From positions 1-16,786 of the forward strand of contig JACROW010000081.1 of the NCBI GenBank assembly GCA_016214245.1: a stretch of DNA of 16,786 nucleotides, given 5' to 3'. Both the position numbers and the translations under genes were made by a program. The notes under the pieces are model-generated. The model ran no database searches. It saw only the letters and a program-made list of their open reading frames with translations, and was not told where the DNA came from. Positions 199 through 12,256 of this stretch are shown here, piece after piece; the stretch's first letter is position 1; each line of letters starts with the position of its first letter. Source of the DNA: Candidatus Omnitrophota bacterium (GTDB taxonomy: Bacteria > Omnitrophota > Gorgyraeia > 2-01-FULL-45-10).

Positions 199-377
199 CG
201 GGGAATTATTTTATTGCGGTCTATTTTGGGATCGTATTCGTACTTTAAAGCCGGCTCAAGAAATTTGTAATAACGCGTCTTAAAATCAAAAGAGCCATAT
301 ATCAAAGATAAGAACGTCTTTATGATAAGGGCGCTGACTGCCAATACCAGTAAAATCTTCGCTATCTTCAGGCTCAT
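195..377 (-). CDS. Small single-pass membrane protein of unknown function, coupled to rpoD
   Basis: This 60-residue protein has a short N-terminus (MSLKIAK) and one hydrophobic helix at about residues 6-26, followed by a polar, Tyr/Lys/Asp-rich tail of about 35 residues. It resembles a tiny signal-anchored protein, with the tail probably outside the membrane. I do not recognise the family. Its ATG overlaps the rpoD stop codon (ATGA at 374-377), which argues for a real, translationally coupled gene and makes it the last gene of the dnaG-rpoD operon. Its stop codon lies within the -35 box of the next promoter, so the operon probably ends here, although no classic terminator is visible between them. 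The frame could be fortuitous, but the ATGA overlap and clean hydrophobic segment favour a gene. Confidence 0.55.
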
Positions 378-817
378 TCGGCAACGTTCATAGCAAGGAA
401 ATTCTTTAGTCTCCTGGATCTGATCGGATGCCTTAACTTCCTCAGCGCCTTCGCTTCAATCTGTCTCACGCGCTCCCTCGTGACTTTGAATACAGCGCCG
501 ACCTCTTCAAGCGTTCGAGGATAGCCGTCACCGATGCCGAAACGCAGCCTCAAGACCTTCTTTTCGCGATCCGTTAAGGTGTCCAACACATCGCCCATCT
601 GTTCTCTCAGCATAGAGTAGGCAGTTGCGTTTGCCGGCGATACAGCACGTTTATCCTCTATGAAATCCCCGAAGTGGGTATCGCCTTCATCGCCTATCGG
701 CGTCTGTAAAGATATCGGCTCTTGGGCTATCTTTAATATGCCCCTCACTTTATCCACCGGCATCCTCATCCTGTGGGCTATCTCTTCCGGGGTAGGCTCC
801 TTGCTCTTCTCCTGCAC
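374..817 (-). CDS. rpoD: RNA polymerase primary sigma factor RpoD, C-terminal part (regions 3 and 4), out of frame with the N-terminal part
   Basis: This is the downstream half of the primary sigma factor. Counting from the GTG at 817, it contains the end of region 3.0/3.1 ([11 protein letters not shown], residues 7-17), the region 3.2 finger ([18 protein letters not shown], 35-52) and region 4 ([16 protein letters not shown] from 71). The helix-turn-helix that reads the -35 box is at about 102-128 ([20 protein letters not shown]). The C-terminal residues are about 30 beyond the HTH, as is normal. The GTG is not the true start: in the same frame, codons for [12 protein letters not shown] continue upstream to about 853 and match the family, so this is one protein broken by a deletion at about 851-860 rather than a separate gene. 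It overlaps the next gene by ATGA. As it stands, the fragment could bind core polymerase and the -35 box weakly but could not melt DNA. Confidence 0.9.
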
Positions 818-834
818 GAGCGTCCTCGAGACCC

Positions 835-1947
835 TTACAAGTTTGTTGATCGTCGCCCAACGGCCTTCATAAGTCCGATGTTGCCCTCTTGGATAAGATC
901 GAGAAAGGAAAGCCCGCGATTAGTGTATTTTTTGGCGATGCTCACGACAAGCCTTAGGTTTGCGGCGACGAGCTCTTTTTTAGCTTTATTGAACTTCACC
1001 TCTCTGGATTTGATCAGCTTGAAATGTTCTTTTATATCATCTATCGGTTCGCCGAAATTTCTCCCTAACGATCTTTTCCGTTTCATCAATCTCTTTATAT
1101 CCCGCCTACGCTTCCCCCTCCTAAGCCTGGCTATTCTTTCATCGAGCCTTGAAAGCTCATCAAGATACTCCTCCATCTTTTTTATAATCTCTTCTATGAC
1201 GGACATCGCGAGATTGAGCTCATTCAGCAACCGCGCGATGCTGGATTTATTTCTTGCCTTTCTAAGGCTATTGGCCTGCCGGATGAGCCTCCGTGTGAGC
1301 CTGGCGCCTTTGAGCCTCGCATCAATATTTATAAACTCTTCGGGGTTCATCTCATTCTTTAAAATCTTGTTCAATATATCTAACGCCTTTGACTTTGATA
1401 GCCGCACTTCCGATACGGCATCTCTCAATTTGCCCTCCGCGTCCTTTATCCGCGCTGCAATCTCTATCTCTTCTTTACGCGTTAATAACGGAATTTGCCC
1501 CATCTGCCTCAGGTACATCTTGACGGGATCGTCTATCTGAACTAGCTTTGCGATCTCTTCTTTAGGCGCTTCTTCTTTCTTCTCCTCTTGGATCTCGCCG
1601 CCCTCGACCGCCTCCGCTTCCTTAGCAAGCTCCTCTTCGCTGTCAACCAGCCTTATGTTCTCATCGCCAAGTATTCCCAGGATCTCGTCTATCTCCTCCG
1701 ATGAGACTATTTCAACCGGGAGGATATTATTAACCTCTTCGAATGTGAGATGTCCCTTCTCTTTACCAAGCGCTATCAATTCTGATAATCCCTTAAAGGG
1801 CTTCTTTTTGCTAAGGGCTTCTTTTTTGGAAGGCTTAAGCCCTTCCTTCAATCTTGGCTCTCCTATCACACGTTTTCTGAATAGTTTTCTACGGCGCGAT
1901 ATGGTGCGTCTCTTTTTTTGTGTATGTTTTACTCTTCGCCCTTTCAT
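835..1947 (-). CDS. rpoD: RNA polymerase primary sigma factor RpoD, N-terminal part, truncated by a frame-shifting deletion
   Basis: RpoD directs core polymerase to housekeeping promoters. Visible in order are an unusually basic N-terminus (23 Lys/Arg in the first 50 residues), region 1.1 (about 53-106), an acidic linker (105-131), region 1.2 ([22 protein letters not shown], about 139-160) and a large charged non-conserved region (about 170-310). Regions 2.1-2.2, the core-binding helix, follow ([18 protein letters not shown] to [10 protein letters not shown], about 324-363). After Val363 the expected '[21 protein letters not shown]' type segment is absent, and seven unrelated residues lead to a stop. 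The family sequence resumes in another frame with TINKLV. The missing part is region 2.3/2.4 and the start of 3.0, about 40 codons. The start (ATG at 1947) is six bases after the dnaG stop; no other Met is available before residue 144. Confidence 0.9.
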
Positions 1948-1953
1948 GGCACT

Positions 1954-3708
1954 TTAGACCTTGCTATTCCTAACTAGACTGTCATATTCCACAAGAAGCC
2001 GTTTCACTTTGTTCTCATCTTTTGAATTATGCGCAGCCTTTATCGCAACCTGAAGCCTGTCGAGCTCGTCCCTGATATTATCCTTTTTTATTCTCGCGAT
2101 GCAATCGGTCACGGCCTTTTCTTTATCTTGAAATGTCTCAGCAAGGCCCGCAACTTCAGATATTAAAATAGCGGCCTCCTCTTTATTCTCCAGATGGTTT
2201 ATGAGCTTCGCCGGACGGATCTCTTTACGCTCTTTATATAGCTCTATAATAACCTTGGCTATATCTCTCACAGCGGAATCTTTGAATTCATCTATCGATA
2301 GATTCTCTCCCACCATCTTGACAAACCTTCCCTCTTCTAGCATAAGCGATAGAACCATCTTCTCGGCGCTTCGAAAGTCCTTTTTTCCTTCCTGCGGCTC
2401 TATAATATAGTGACGTGCCTCGTAGTCGGGTTTCACCTTTTTAAGCTCTGTTCGTATCGCCTCTTCGTCCACCGATAAGGCCTCAGCGAGTCTCTTTACC
2501 AAATTTGATTTTAAAACAGCGTTGGATATCCTCGCGATGGTTGGCAGCATCTCAGCCGCTATCCTCGCCTTTCCGTGTGCGCTTTTTATGTCGAATCGGG
2601 AAGCAGTTTTATCGAGTTTGTAATCGAAGAGGTTCTTGCTCGATTTTATAACCCTCGTAAACTCTTCAGCTCCAAATTTACGTATGTAGCTATCCGGGTC
2701 GTAACCGCTCGGAAGCTCAGCTACATAGACGTTAACATCTTCGCTTATGAATATATCCAGATTACGCAAACTTGCAGCCTCCCCCGCTTCGTCGGGGTCA
2801 TATACCATTATCACTGTGTTGGTGAATCGTTTCAGTAACTTCACCTGGTCTATCGTAAGCGCCGTTCCAAGTGTCGCGATCAGGTTAGCAATACCGGCTT
2901 GATAAGGAATTATAAAATCGAGATACCCTTCCACCACCAGAACATATCCTCTCTTCTTTATATCTTCTTTACTGAAGTTCAACCCATAGAGGTTCCTTCC
3001 TTTGGAATATATATAAGTCTCGGGAGAATTTATGTATTTCGGAAGGCTTGCATCCAATACCCTTCCGCCGAACCCCACGATCCTTTCTTTTAAATCGATT
3101 ATTGGAAATATAACCCTGTGCCTAAATCTATCGTAATAGCCTCCCCGGTCATTCGCTATCGCAAGTCCGGCCTTCTCCAATACGGCCTCTTGAACTCCTC
3201 TCTTTTTGAAAAAGCTTAAAAGGGCCTCCCATGCATTCGGCGCATAGCCGATCTTGAAAAACTTAATCGTTTCATCGCCTATACCTCTTGAGTTTAGATA
3301 GTCTCTTGCAGTATCATCCCCTGCAAGGCACGTCTGGAAAAACTGGCAGGCCAGTTCATTTATCTTATAAAGCTGACTTGCAAAAGAGCTAACGTCCTCT
3401 TTCTGCCGTGTGATATTGCGCGGTAGTATTACCCCGGTCTTTTTTGCAAGCATTTCTATGACTTCCGGGAATTCGAGGTTTTCGTGCCGAATGACGAAAG
3501 AAAATACGTTTCCGCCGGCTCCGCATCCGAAACAATGAAAAATCTTTTTATCAGGGCTGACTACAAAAGAGGGGGTCTTCTCGTGATGAAATGGACAAAG
3601 GGCCTTATAGCTTCTGCCTGTCTTCTTCAATGGTATATAGCGGGATATGACCTCGACAATATCGGCCCTGTCCTGAATCTGGTCGATGACGTCCTCTGGA
3701 ATGGCCAT
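1954..3708 (-). CDS. dnaG: DNA primase
   Basis: DnaG makes the RNA primers for chromosome replication and works with the replicative helicase DnaB. The 584 residues show the full architecture. The N-terminal CHC2 zinc-binding domain has ligands Cys38, His41, Cys59 and Cys62 (LCPFHHEKTPSF, HCFGCGAGG). The catalytic TOPRIM core has VVEGYLD (Glu260) and VYDPDEAG (Asp304, Asp306), almost the same numbering as the E. coli enzyme. A helical C-terminal domain (about 430-584) corresponds to the helicase-binding region. Basic DNA-binding residues are visible around 213-240 (GFGGRVL, PKYINSPET). The start ATG shares one base with the nif3 stop (TAATG), which implies coupled translation. The gene sits directly before rpoD, the order known from bacterial macromolecular-synthesis operons. 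The length is normal and nothing looks damaged. Confidence 0.97.
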   Translation of the reverse strand: MAIPEDVIDQIQDRADIVEVISRYIPLKKTGRSYKALCPFHHEKTPSFVVSPDKKIFHCFGCGAGGNVFSFVIRHENLEFPEVIEMLAKKTGVILPRNITRQKEDVSSFASQLYKINELACQFFQTCLAGDDTARDYLNSRGIGDETIKFFKIGYAPNAWEALLSFFKKRGVQEAVLEKAGLAIANDRGGYYDRFRHRVIFPIIDLKERIVGFGGRVLDASLPKYINSPETYIYSKGRNLYGLNFSKEDIKKRGYVLVVEGYLDFIIPYQAGIANLIATLGTALTIDQVKLLKRFTNTVIMVYDPDEAGEAASLRNLDIFISEDVNVYVAELPSGYDPDSYIRKFGAEEFTRVIKSSKNLFDYKLDKTASRFDIKSAHGKARIAAEMLPTIARISNAVLKSNLVKRLAEALSVDEEAIRTELKKVKPDYEARHYIIEPQEGKKDFRSAEKMVLSLMLEEGRFVKMVGENLSIDEFKDSAVRDIAKVIIELYKERKEIRPAKLINHLENKEEAAILISEVAGLAETFQDKEKAVTDCIARIKKDNIRDELDRLQVAIKAAHNSKDENKVKRLLVEYDSLVRNSKV

Positions 3709-6121: not shown

Positions 6122-6481
6122 TCACCCCCTTATAAAGCTTACCTTGAAGTAGTGGAGGAACGCTATAGTGTAGAGCCGTCTATCCACTACCGCATAAAAT
6201 ATTCCCGCTATTTTACAAATAAGCTTATCCGTACCAAGGCCGTCATTATGCTCCTTAAAGACAGAAAAATGCCGCTTCCCCAGAGGGGCGCTATTATTCT
6301 CTAGATCTATCCATTCTTTTAAATCATGCCCCTCGCTTAACTTCTTAACATCCTTTATAAAATAAAAACACCTTCTTTCGGTTGTTGAGATGAAGCCATC
6401 TTTCTCAAAAACCTCTCTCAAGAAGATGTCTTTCTTGCGGGACTCTATTGATTTTCGATGTTTAAAGGTAACTTCGTGCAT
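6122..6481 (-). CDS. Uncharacterised protein of 119 residues
   Basis: The family is not recognised. The frame can be read from an ATG at 6493, but that ATG is followed at once by GGAGG, which stands five bases before a second ATG at 6481. The second start is therefore preferred and gives 119 residues. The protein looks soluble and globular. A charged N-terminus (HRKSIESRKKDIFLREVFEKDGF) precedes a cluster of aromatic and Lys residues (RRCFYFIKDVKKL), and the C-terminus is hydrophobic and beta-like (KLICKIAGIFYAVVDRRLYTIAFLHYF, about 90-114). There are two Cys residues but no CxxC motif. It is the first gene of a small stand-alone unit with a consensus promoter and a terminator, which argues for a real, expressed gene of independent function. 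Confidence 0.65.
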   Translation of the reverse strand: MHEVTFKHRKSIESRKKDIFLREVFEKDGFISTTERRCFYFIKDVKKLSEGHDLKEWIDLENNSAPLGKRHFSVFKEHNDGLGTDKLICKIAGIFYAVVDRRLYTIAFLHYFKVSFIRG

Positions 6482-6558
6482 TGGGGCCTCCATAAAATAC
6501 TTTTTAAAACTTTTTATTTATATCCCCAAAAAAAATACTGCCTTTAATCTCAATATTA

Positions 6559-6587
6559 AGTATACACTAGCATTTTTAGGGTGTCAA
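6559..6587 (-). promoter_or_regulatory. Predicted sigma70-type promoter of the two-gene orphan unit
   Basis: On the minus strand TTGACA (6582-6587) stands exactly 17 bases before TATACT (6559-6564). Transcription should start near 6552, giving an AT-rich leader of about 70 bases. The -35 box is part of a 6-base inverted repeat (6583-6588 and 6597-6602, GTCAAT/ATTGAC) that could be an operator, or a weak plus-strand terminator since TTTTTT follows it; this part is speculative. Confidence 0.8.
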
Positions 6588-10190: not shown

Positions 10191-11624
10191 CTATGCGCTA
10201 TATGCTAATCTCTTGCAGAATTCCAGTATCTTCAACGCCTTCTTTTCGGTGGAGGCCTCGGCATAGATCCTTAAAATTGGCTCTGTTCCTGACAGCCTTA
10301 ACATGAGCCAGGAGGAGTCTTCACATATGAACTTATAGCCATCAATATCCTTTATCTTTATGATATTTTTGCCTAGTATCTTTTTCGGAGGGTGTGCCTT
10401 CAGATGCTGCATCAATCTTGATTTACTCTCATGAGGATATTTCACATCAAGCCTTCTATACTCATATGTGCCGTATTCTTTATCGATGGCTTTTAATATC
10501 TCGAGGATCTTTTTTCTCCTCATAACCATCATCTCTAATATCAAGAGGCCGGATAATATGCCGTCCCTTTCCGGGATATAATTTTTAAATGCTACGCCGC
10601 CGGTCTCCTCCCCGCCTATCAGAACATCCTTATCCTTCATTATCCCGCATATATATTTGAATCCGACCGGGGTTTCGTGCGTCCTCAATCGGTAAAGAGC
10701 GCATATCTTATCTATCAAAACCGTGCCGCAGATGGTCTGGACTACATCGCCTCTCATCTTCTTGTCTTCCAATAGGTGGAGCAGGAGGAGAACCATGACC
10801 TTATGCCCTGTAAGCAGTTTCCCGTTCGGCAGAGCCACCCCAAGCCTGTCCGCATCCCCATCCGTTGCGATTCCAATATCATATTTAGATGACTTTACTG
10901 TATCCGCCAGCTCCTTTAGATTCGGCAGTATAGGCTCTGGATTTATTCCGCCGAAACCGGGGTTCGACTCATTGTGGATGGTATCGATTTTACAATTTCC
11001 GCCCTTAAGAAGATACTCTATATAAGCGTCCCCTGTTCCATACATCGAATCGACGAGGACCTTCAAGCGGGATCTTTTCAAAAGTTTAATGTTGACATAT
11101 CTCTTCACAAATTCGAGATGGCTTGGGACTAAATCTATTATCTTCACGAGGCCTTTCGATTTTGCCTCTTCTATTGGGATATATTTAATATCATTTACGC
11201 CGAGATTCTCTTCCATCTTTTTTGTAATATCCGGATCTGCAGAGCCTGCATAGTAGGCTTTATATTTTATACCATTATACCTGGCCGGATCATGGCTTGC
11301 CGTTATGACAATGCCGCCTATCAGATTTCTATCCTTGATCGCATAACTTATGGAAGGGGTCGGTGTGGAACGATCGGTTAATATCGTCCTGATATCATTC
11401 CCGGCCATGACGCACGCGATGAGTTCCGCGTACTTATCTGAAAGAAACCTCGTGTCGTAGCCGACAACCAGTTCGAAGCGCCTGCCGCTTAAAACCGATT
11501 TTTGGCTCTTCACATAATCCGCCATCGCCTGGGCCACCTTCTTCACATTTGCGAATGTGAAGTCCTCGCTTATAACAGCCCTCCAGCCATCCGTGCCAAA
11601 TTTGATATCGCCAGCCATTTTCAC
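10191..11624 (-). CDS. Alpha-D-phosphohexomutase (phosphoglucomutase/phosphomannomutase)
   Basis: The enzyme interconverts hexose 1- and 6-phosphates through a phosphoserine. All four active-site loops of the alpha-D-phosphohexomutase superfamily are visible. They are the phosphoserine loop TASHDP (Ser110; Asp112 replaces the usual Asn), the metal loop DGDADR (Asp255, Asp257, Asp259), the sugar-binding loop GGEETGG (337-343) and the phosphate-binding loop RLSGTEP (443-449). At 477 residues the length is normal. A GTG at 11624 overlaps the rpe stop (GTGA), but the ATG at 11618 has AGGG five bases upstream and is the more likely start. Together with the mannose-1-phosphate guanylyltransferase upstream it may feed GDP-mannose synthesis; glucose specificity cannot be excluded. 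Confidence 0.92.
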   Translation of the reverse strand: MKMAGDIKFGTDGWRAVISEDFTFANVKKVAQAMADYVKSQKSVLSGRRFELVVGYDTRFLSDKYAELIACVMAGNDIRTILTDRSTPTPSISYAIKDRNLIGGIVITASHDPARYNGIKYKAYYAGSADPDITKKMEENLGVNDIKYIPIEEAKSKGLVKIIDLVPSHLEFVKRYVNIKLLKRSRLKVLVDSMYGTGDAYIEYLLKGGNCKIDTIHNESNPGFGGINPEPILPNLKELADTVKSSKYDIGIATDGDADRLGVALPNGKLLTGHKVMVLLLLHLLEDKKMRGDVVQTICGTVLIDKICALYRLRTHETPVGFKYICGIMKDKDVLIGGEETGGVAFKNYIPERDGILSGLLILEMMVMRRKKILEILKAIDKEYGTYEYRRLDVKYPHESKSRLMQHLKAHPPKKILGKNIIKIKDIDGYKFICEDSSWLMLRLSGTEPILRIYAEASTEKKALKILEFCKRLAYSA

Positions 11625-12256
11625 CCTCTCAATTTCTTTATCGCCTGCGCATAGTCCACGCTTCCGAATACCGATGTGCCCGCAACCAAGATATTGGCCC
11701 CCTGCTTCACTGCCTCGACTGCATTGACCTCGTTGATGCCGCCGTCTACCTCTATGTCCTTTTTGAATATTTTGCGCAAATCCCCTATCTTCGATAGACA
11801 GTCGAATATAAATTCCTGCCCTCCAAAGCCGGGCTCCACTGTCATGATCAATACCATATCGACCATATTCAATATCGGCTCGATGCGCCTCAATTCTGTC
11901 CTCGGCCTTATCGATACCCCTACCTTCTTTTTGAAATATCTAACCAACCTTATAATCTCCTTCGGATCCTCATCAACCTCTATATGAAATGTTATTATGT
12001 CGCTTCCGGCCTTGGCGAAACTCTCGATGTACTCCTCCGGTTTTTTTATCATGAGATGCACATCCAGCGGAAGCTTTGTAATTGGCCTGATCGATTTTAC
12101 GACAACAGAGCCTATAGTGATATTAGGGACGAAGTTGCCATCCATCACATCGACGTGTATCCAGTCTGCTCCGGCCTTTTCGGCATCCCTTACCTCCTGA
12201 CCCAGTTTTGAAAAATCCGCCGAAAGTATGCTCGGCGCGACTAACACTTTTTGCAT
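11621..12256 (-). CDS. rpe: Ribulose-phosphate 3-epimerase
   Basis: Rpe interconverts ribulose-5-phosphate and xylulose-5-phosphate in the pentose phosphate pathway. The 211-residue TIM barrel shows SILSADFSKLG, HVDVMDGNFVPN (His34, Asp36), DVHLM (His67), MTVEPGFGGQ and VDGGI (Asp171), followed by AGTSVFG. His34, Asp36, His67 and Asp171 correspond to the metal-binding and acid/base residues of the family. The loop that is usually 'NPxTP' reads SIRPRTELR here, a modest deviation. GGAGG stands six bases before the ATG, a strong site. It follows the M50 protease gene by 15 bases and overlaps the mutase start. Confidence 0.97.
   Translation of the reverse strand: MQKVLVAPSILSADFSKLGQEVRDAEKAGADWIHVDVMDGNFVPNITIGSVVVKSIRPITKLPLDVHLMIKKPEEYIESFAKAGSDIITFHIEVDEDPKEIIRLVRYFKKKVGVSIRPRTELRRIEPILNMVDMVLIMTVEPGFGGQEFIFDCLSKIGDLRKIFKKDIEVDGGINEVNAVEAVKQGANILVAGTSVFGSVDYAQAIKKLRG

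Follow-up and report, generated by a model that had tools for sequence, protein, structure and literature searches.

An interrupted primary sigma factor gene in an Omnitrophota draft genome, very probably an artefact of assembly

The window, that is, the whole stretch of DNA analyzed, is the entire contig C75 of an Omnitrophota metagenome-assembled genome (MAG). It is 16,786 bases long and contains no N bases. The bin to which it belongs comprises 724,322 bases on 132 contigs and is 73.9% complete. The window carries rpoD, the gene for the primary sigma factor, which starts at 1947 on the minus strand and is divided over two frames that meet at a short join (Table 1). All 20 named relatives of this rpoD come from MAGs labelled Omnitrophota or Omnitrophica, and in the relative L005 a dnaG-like ORF, judged by eye, also lies directly before rpoD. 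Apart from rpoD, the window looks sound, with 16 other ORFs, each in a single frame, 15 of which match a family at E <= 0.001, some of them under curated cut-offs. Rfam and tRNA scans of the window gave no matches. Near the contig end, a 9-base inverted pair, GATTTTGCC / GGCAAAATC, can be seen by eye at 2-10 and 53-61, followed by a terminator-like hairpin at 97-118, likewise picked out by eye.

Table 1. Coordinates of the rpoD parts, the join and the neighboring gene in the window.
Feature	Positions	Strand	Basis
rpoD N-terminal part (regions 1.1, 1.2, 2.1-2.2), open to Val363	859..1947	-	Pfam PF03979, PF00140, PF04542
Join: 5 bases where relatives have 126 (42 codons)	854..858	-	Comparison with relatives
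Out-of-frame tail of frame 1, GRRSTNL and stop (837-835)	835..858	-	
rpoD C-terminal part (regions 3, 4), other frame, with stop (376-374)	374..853	-	Pfam PF04539, PF04545
dnaG (DNA primase), one open frame, directly upstream of rpoD	1954..3708	-	TIGR01391, 464 bits

The first rpoD frame runs from 1947 to 835 and encodes 370 amino acids, in which the motif GLMKAV ends at Val363 (codon 861-859). The second frame opens with TINKLV and extends from a Thr codon at 853-851 to 377. Regions 1.1, 1.2, 3 and 4 are all recognized by Pfam, region 3 (PF04539) over positions 4-77 of 78 and region 4 (PF04545) over positions 1-50 of 50, both in the second frame. Region 2 is incomplete, with PF04542 matched at positions 1-40 of 71 only, and no single open frame passes through regions 1 to 4, which are split between two frames at 854-858. 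The N-terminal part is 71% identical to the rpoD of L005 over residues 29-353, and the C-terminal part, which is free of stops, is 90% identical over residues 392-552. Both halves are open and conserved, and signs of decay are absent. Since they align in order to one and the same gene, a chance pattern is ruled out.

The block that is missing from the window can be defined from the relatives. In 26 of 27 loci parsed by script (L004-L023, L025-L029, L031 and L032), exactly 42 residues separate GLMKAV from TIN[KR]L in an intact gene; the exception, L032 (genome G035), was not caught by the search string, yet its entire stretch was matched in the phylum-sample search. The 126 bases of the relatives are reduced to 5 in the window, a net loss of 121 that breaks the frame. 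Alignment to the 613-residue chain of E. coli sigma70, in which query residues 2-107 correspond to 382-487, identifies the block as residues 417-458, which make up regions 2.3/2.4. It is also the best conserved DNA of rpoD among the relatives, with a mean pairwise identity of 0.82 vs. 0.50-0.77 for the other segments.

These results agree with what the initial annotation had described at the site. It had the N-terminal frame normal up to GLMKAV, as the ORF reading and the matches to regions 1.1 and 1.2 bear out, and the C-terminal frame resuming five bases later at TINKLV in a different phase, which is what the five bases at 858-854 between the frames amount to. The site had been correctly placed at 845-870, with the exact join now narrowed to 853-859. 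The position of the lost segment, given as about sigma70 417-458, is confirmed by the full-length alignment, and the estimated net loss of about 121 bases holds against the parsed relatives.

Sections of two studies describe Y425-W434, Q437 and T440 of sigma70 as acting in the melting and reading of the -10 box (PMC2613000, PMC4593229), and all of these residues fall inside the lost 42-residue block. The same sections describe a single change, W433A, that merely slows opening. The effect of single residues is not decisive here, as 42 residues are gone from the window rpoD.

Searches of the bin with PF04542, with a 108-aa segment of a relative and with the C-terminal part of the window rpoD returned no second copy or orphan fragment of the missing piece; the matches were to the window itself and to a separate sigma factor gene on contig C13. 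The latter encodes an intact, group-2-like sigma factor of 280 amino acids that includes regions 1.2, 2, 3 and 4 and contains a WWIRQ motif. Over a segment of 107 residues (regions 2.1-3), it shares 54% identity with the rpoD of a relative. Most of the relatives surveyed have a shorter second sigma factor as well as rpoD, and the C13 protein is thus no spare rpoD. The second rpoD copy suggested as an option by the initial annotation was not found in the bin, which is weak evidence since about a quarter of the genome is missing, and no second full-length rpoD match was found in any of 193 surveyed genomes or 37 relatives, a count to which the 108-aa search of the phylum sample did not contribute. 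As a separate observation, a second sigma gene seems to be truncated inside region 2 or shortly past it in G041 (C32, C45), G043 (C48) and G176 (C33), where the matches end or start near residues 368-409.

A promoter scan of the whole window yielded 45 sites, compared with 29.8 +/- 5.0 in shuffled sequences. The four best sites, at 6587, 5885, 5364 and 198 on the minus strand, each have 11 of 12 matches, and at three of the four an ORF start follows the end of the -10 box at a distance of 24-66 bases. The four promoters predicted by the initial annotation are present as strong sites, though either sigma factor might read their -10-like boxes. The TATAAT-type -10 boxes at the four sites suggest that the cell has a working sigma factor. 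The site at 6587-6559 precedes a minus-strand ORF at 6122-6493 that encodes 123 amino acids and has no Pfam match.

The same bin contains other faulty joins. Twenty of the 132 contigs were taken, 18 of which were readable and amount to 116,715 bases, and runs of N occur in only two of these, C85 and C1; C85 was included knowingly, its N run having been noted beforehand, which leaves one run in 17 contigs as the unprompted yield. On C85, rpoC is divided over two frames that meet at a 4-N run (L098 7483-7486). On C1, a 4-N run (L086 2821-2824) is flanked directly on both sides by an identical 16 bases and represents overlapping contig ends that were joined and written as a gap. The rpoB gene on C85 matches only from residue 86. 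In the place of its first 85 residues (L098 about 11520-12069), and with no N in between, an unrelated frame comes to its end; this frame has a weak likeness to AddB (25.6 bits, E 3e-6, far under the family cut-off) and no Pfam match. Residues 3-47 of rpoB are found on contig C36, right at its end. Another RNA polymerase gene of the bin thus contains a wrong join that is free of N bases. The start of C85 also cuts tuf, within which C85 (1-127) and C36 (6-132) have exactly 127 bases in common, as expected from a graph of 127-base k-mers. The overlap between C36 and the end of C79 is 92 bases long, which does not fit a picture of 127-base words. The near equality of the rpoD loss (126 bases, net 121) to 127 is only suggestive and is not used as evidence.

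Breaks in rpoD are also found elsewhere in the phylum. The sample of 193 Omnitrophota genomes was made up of 155, 18 and 20 genomes, the last 20 searched with the 370-aa and 108-aa queries. The rpoD match is full-length in 169 genomes and interrupted in 13, where the cause is the end of a contig, an N run or, in the window genome, the deletion. In 11 genomes (G171, G188, G052, G088, G091, G099, G112, G114, G125, G130 and G043) no rpoD was found, just other sigma-like matches. Two further genomes, G005 and G006, in which rpoD is broken near residues 160-222 and 165, respectively, are outside the 193 and were not counted. Of the 13 interruptions, seven (in the window genome, G023, G105, G123, G083, G093 and G101) are within residues 308-394 of the 552-residue reference, where a uniform spread would put about 2; six other MAGs are thus broken in region 2 or at its edge. 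The interruptions in G044, G110, G155, G177, G193 and G097 are elsewhere in the gene. The binomial probability of this clustering is 0.0017 with the window genome and 0.006 without it (6 of 12), a rough and weak test, as the region was picked after inspection of the data; with the same post hoc choice of region, the independent assemblies show 6 breaks of 12 in region 2 against an expected value of about 2. For G023, G105, G123, G093 and G101, the loci were fetched and show the contig end; for G044, G110, G155, G177 and G193, it was deduced from match positions. The contig end in G101, at residue 309-310, is at the edge of the region, and the overlapping ends in G155 (258-329) reach into it, although this genome was counted as outside.

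In the two remaining cases, the break is a run of N that is shorter than the DNA it stands for. In G083, 8 N stand for about 70 bases of region 2 (L063 2050-2057), and in G097, about 144 bases of region 3 are represented by 16 N (L070 1332-1347). Joins in rpoD have thus been made over skipped DNA whose size was underestimated. Stop codons were counted inside 14 of the 169 full-length matches, some of which may lie upstream of the start. One of the full-length genes, that of G072 (L109, G072:C284), carries a TAG stop codon in frame at residue 329, which belongs to region 2, and was tallied among the 169 and not among the 13.

Sigma70 domains were also encountered inside very long open frames in three other Omnitrophota genomes. 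G129 (L106 3544-15000, G129:C9) has two sets of sigma70 regions in one frame of 35,009 codons, while G162 (L107, G162:C111) and G048 (L108, G048:C24) have one set each, in frames of 25,048 and 7,637 codons, all three lengths being those given in the search output. The fetched stretches of 10-15 kb contain no N and are open for 3,333-4,000 codons round the matches. Pfam regions 2, 3 and 4 are found in these frames, and nearby are matches to radical SAM (G129), PEP-utilising (G162) and helix-turn-helix (G048) domains. Giant ORFs in this phylum are described in passages of PMC10066038, a paper in which the word “sigma” occurs once, in a company name. Among the papers listed by a literature search, none has a title concerning sigma factor domains in Omnitrophica giant genes.

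Taken together, the deletion in rpoD is almost certainly an artefact of assembly and not a real biological feature. It is most simply explained by a faulty join that the assembler or scaffolder introduced into the most conserved part of the gene, and an ordinary, intact rpoD is most likely present in the living cell. The initial annotation favored an assembly or consensus error, and three lines of evidence speak for it. Joins in RNA polymerase genes are faulty in the same bin, one of them, in rpoB, without N; region 2 of rpoD is also broken, or spanned by a gap of underestimated size, in other Omnitrophota assemblies; and the relatives carry the block (26 of 27), with no second full-length rpoD in the 193 genomes. 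We infer that the join originated with the assembler, and the step responsible may have been as follows. The region 2 DNA, being the best conserved of rpoD, would tangle or lose coverage in the assembly graph of a mixed community. The two sides of the gene would then be joined and the intervening stretch dropped, leaving the 5-base filler, the net loss of 121 bases and the broken frame. Passages of PMC11443906 describe how de Bruijn assemblers, at conserved regions where strains cannot be connected, fragment or build consensus or chimeric contigs.

Several observations count against an artefact. The join itself contains no N, and the window otherwise looks sound. For the 5 filler bases there is no explanation: words from relatives that span them reach 10 bases at most, and in the relatives the word of that length codes for an unrelated N-terminal stretch or falls outside the gene. 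The exact shared runs between the relatives compared are at most 47 bases, shorter than 127, so that tangling would need closer strains in the sample. The 92-base overlap of C36 and C79 also belongs here.

Other origins of the join were considered. Slippage between direct repeats was rejected because no direct repeat ends at the join in the sequence present in the window. The sole repeat pair found across it, at 713-721 and 1042-1050, has 8 of 9 bases alike and is 130-185 bases off. A template switch with the second sigma gene was also rejected, since the words shared at the join are no longer than 8 bases. Ribosomal frameshifting would not suffice as a rescue, as its product would still lack 42 residues.

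A real deletion could be read in several ways, all of them very improbable. The deletion might be carried by a minority of the cells or strains, or by a dying sub-population, with the assembler picking this allele while most cells are intact. Strain mixing is possible in draft genomes, and the join is free of N and clean on both flanks. However, cells without the residues that melt and read the -10 box should not grow to assembly depth, and the other misjoins in the bin make an artefact simpler. This is very improbable, and the population variant mentioned by the initial annotation gains no support. Even less credible is a fixed deletion alongside a second, intact rpoD that resides in the quarter of the genome absent from the bin, a possibility that a completeness of just 73.9% leaves room for: a second full-length match would be without parallel in the 193 genomes and 37 relatives, and we give this the least credence of all.

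Alternatively, the deletion might be fixed and the C13 sigma factor, which spans regions 1.2 to 4, might have taken over housekeeping transcription. It is intact, has the WWIRQ motif and resembles a relative's rpoD through regions 2.1-3, and the -10-like boxes in the window might suit either factor. However, the second sigma factor beside rpoD in most relatives speaks for accompaniment and not for substitution, and regions 3-4 of rpoD are still 90% identical and stop-free, which would be odd for a dispensable gene. We consider such a takeover extremely improbable. The same slight credence applies to the broader proposition that the lineage runs on a group-2-like sigma factor of the C13 type, its sole primary sigma factor lacking the melting segment and the pieces of rpoD serving as leftovers or regulators. 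A limited literature search found no paper on a primary sigma factor lacking region 2.4, by which the existence of one is not excluded.

Were it real, the deletion would call into question the rule that a primary sigma factor is indispensable. Taken as an artefact, it is a warning that the best conserved stretches of essential genes can be misjoined in short-read MAGs. As a rough rate for the phylum, rpoD is interrupted in 13 of 193 genomes, and 11 more lack it in the bin. Essential domains that are missing from MAGs should be given no biological reading without the reads.

Compared with the group 1 sigma70 factors RpoD and SigA, the window copy has regions 1.1, 1.2, 2.1-2.2, 3 and 4, with normal similarity, in the usual order and beside dnaG. 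It differs in being without regions 2.3/2.4 and split in two frames, whereas its relatives are normal. SigO/RsoA of Bacillus is a two-part sigma factor, whose region 2 and region 4 parts are encoded in separate frames. The window rpoD likewise has its region 2 and region 4 parts in separate frames, but its regions 2.3/2.4 are in neither part and were not found elsewhere in the bin. A split, two-part sigma factor was thus rejected, as the segment that reads the -10 box is in neither part and the only other sigma factor found in the bin is that on C13. A further parallel is with the misassembly of conserved genes in metagenomes, which parts of PMC11443906 describe for 16S rRNA and strain mixtures. 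In keeping with it, the most conserved stretch is where the break falls, other MAGs are broken at this site too, and the bin has misjoins elsewhere, one of them free of N. The window rpoD is different in having lost an internal stretch, with 5 filler bases left at the site.
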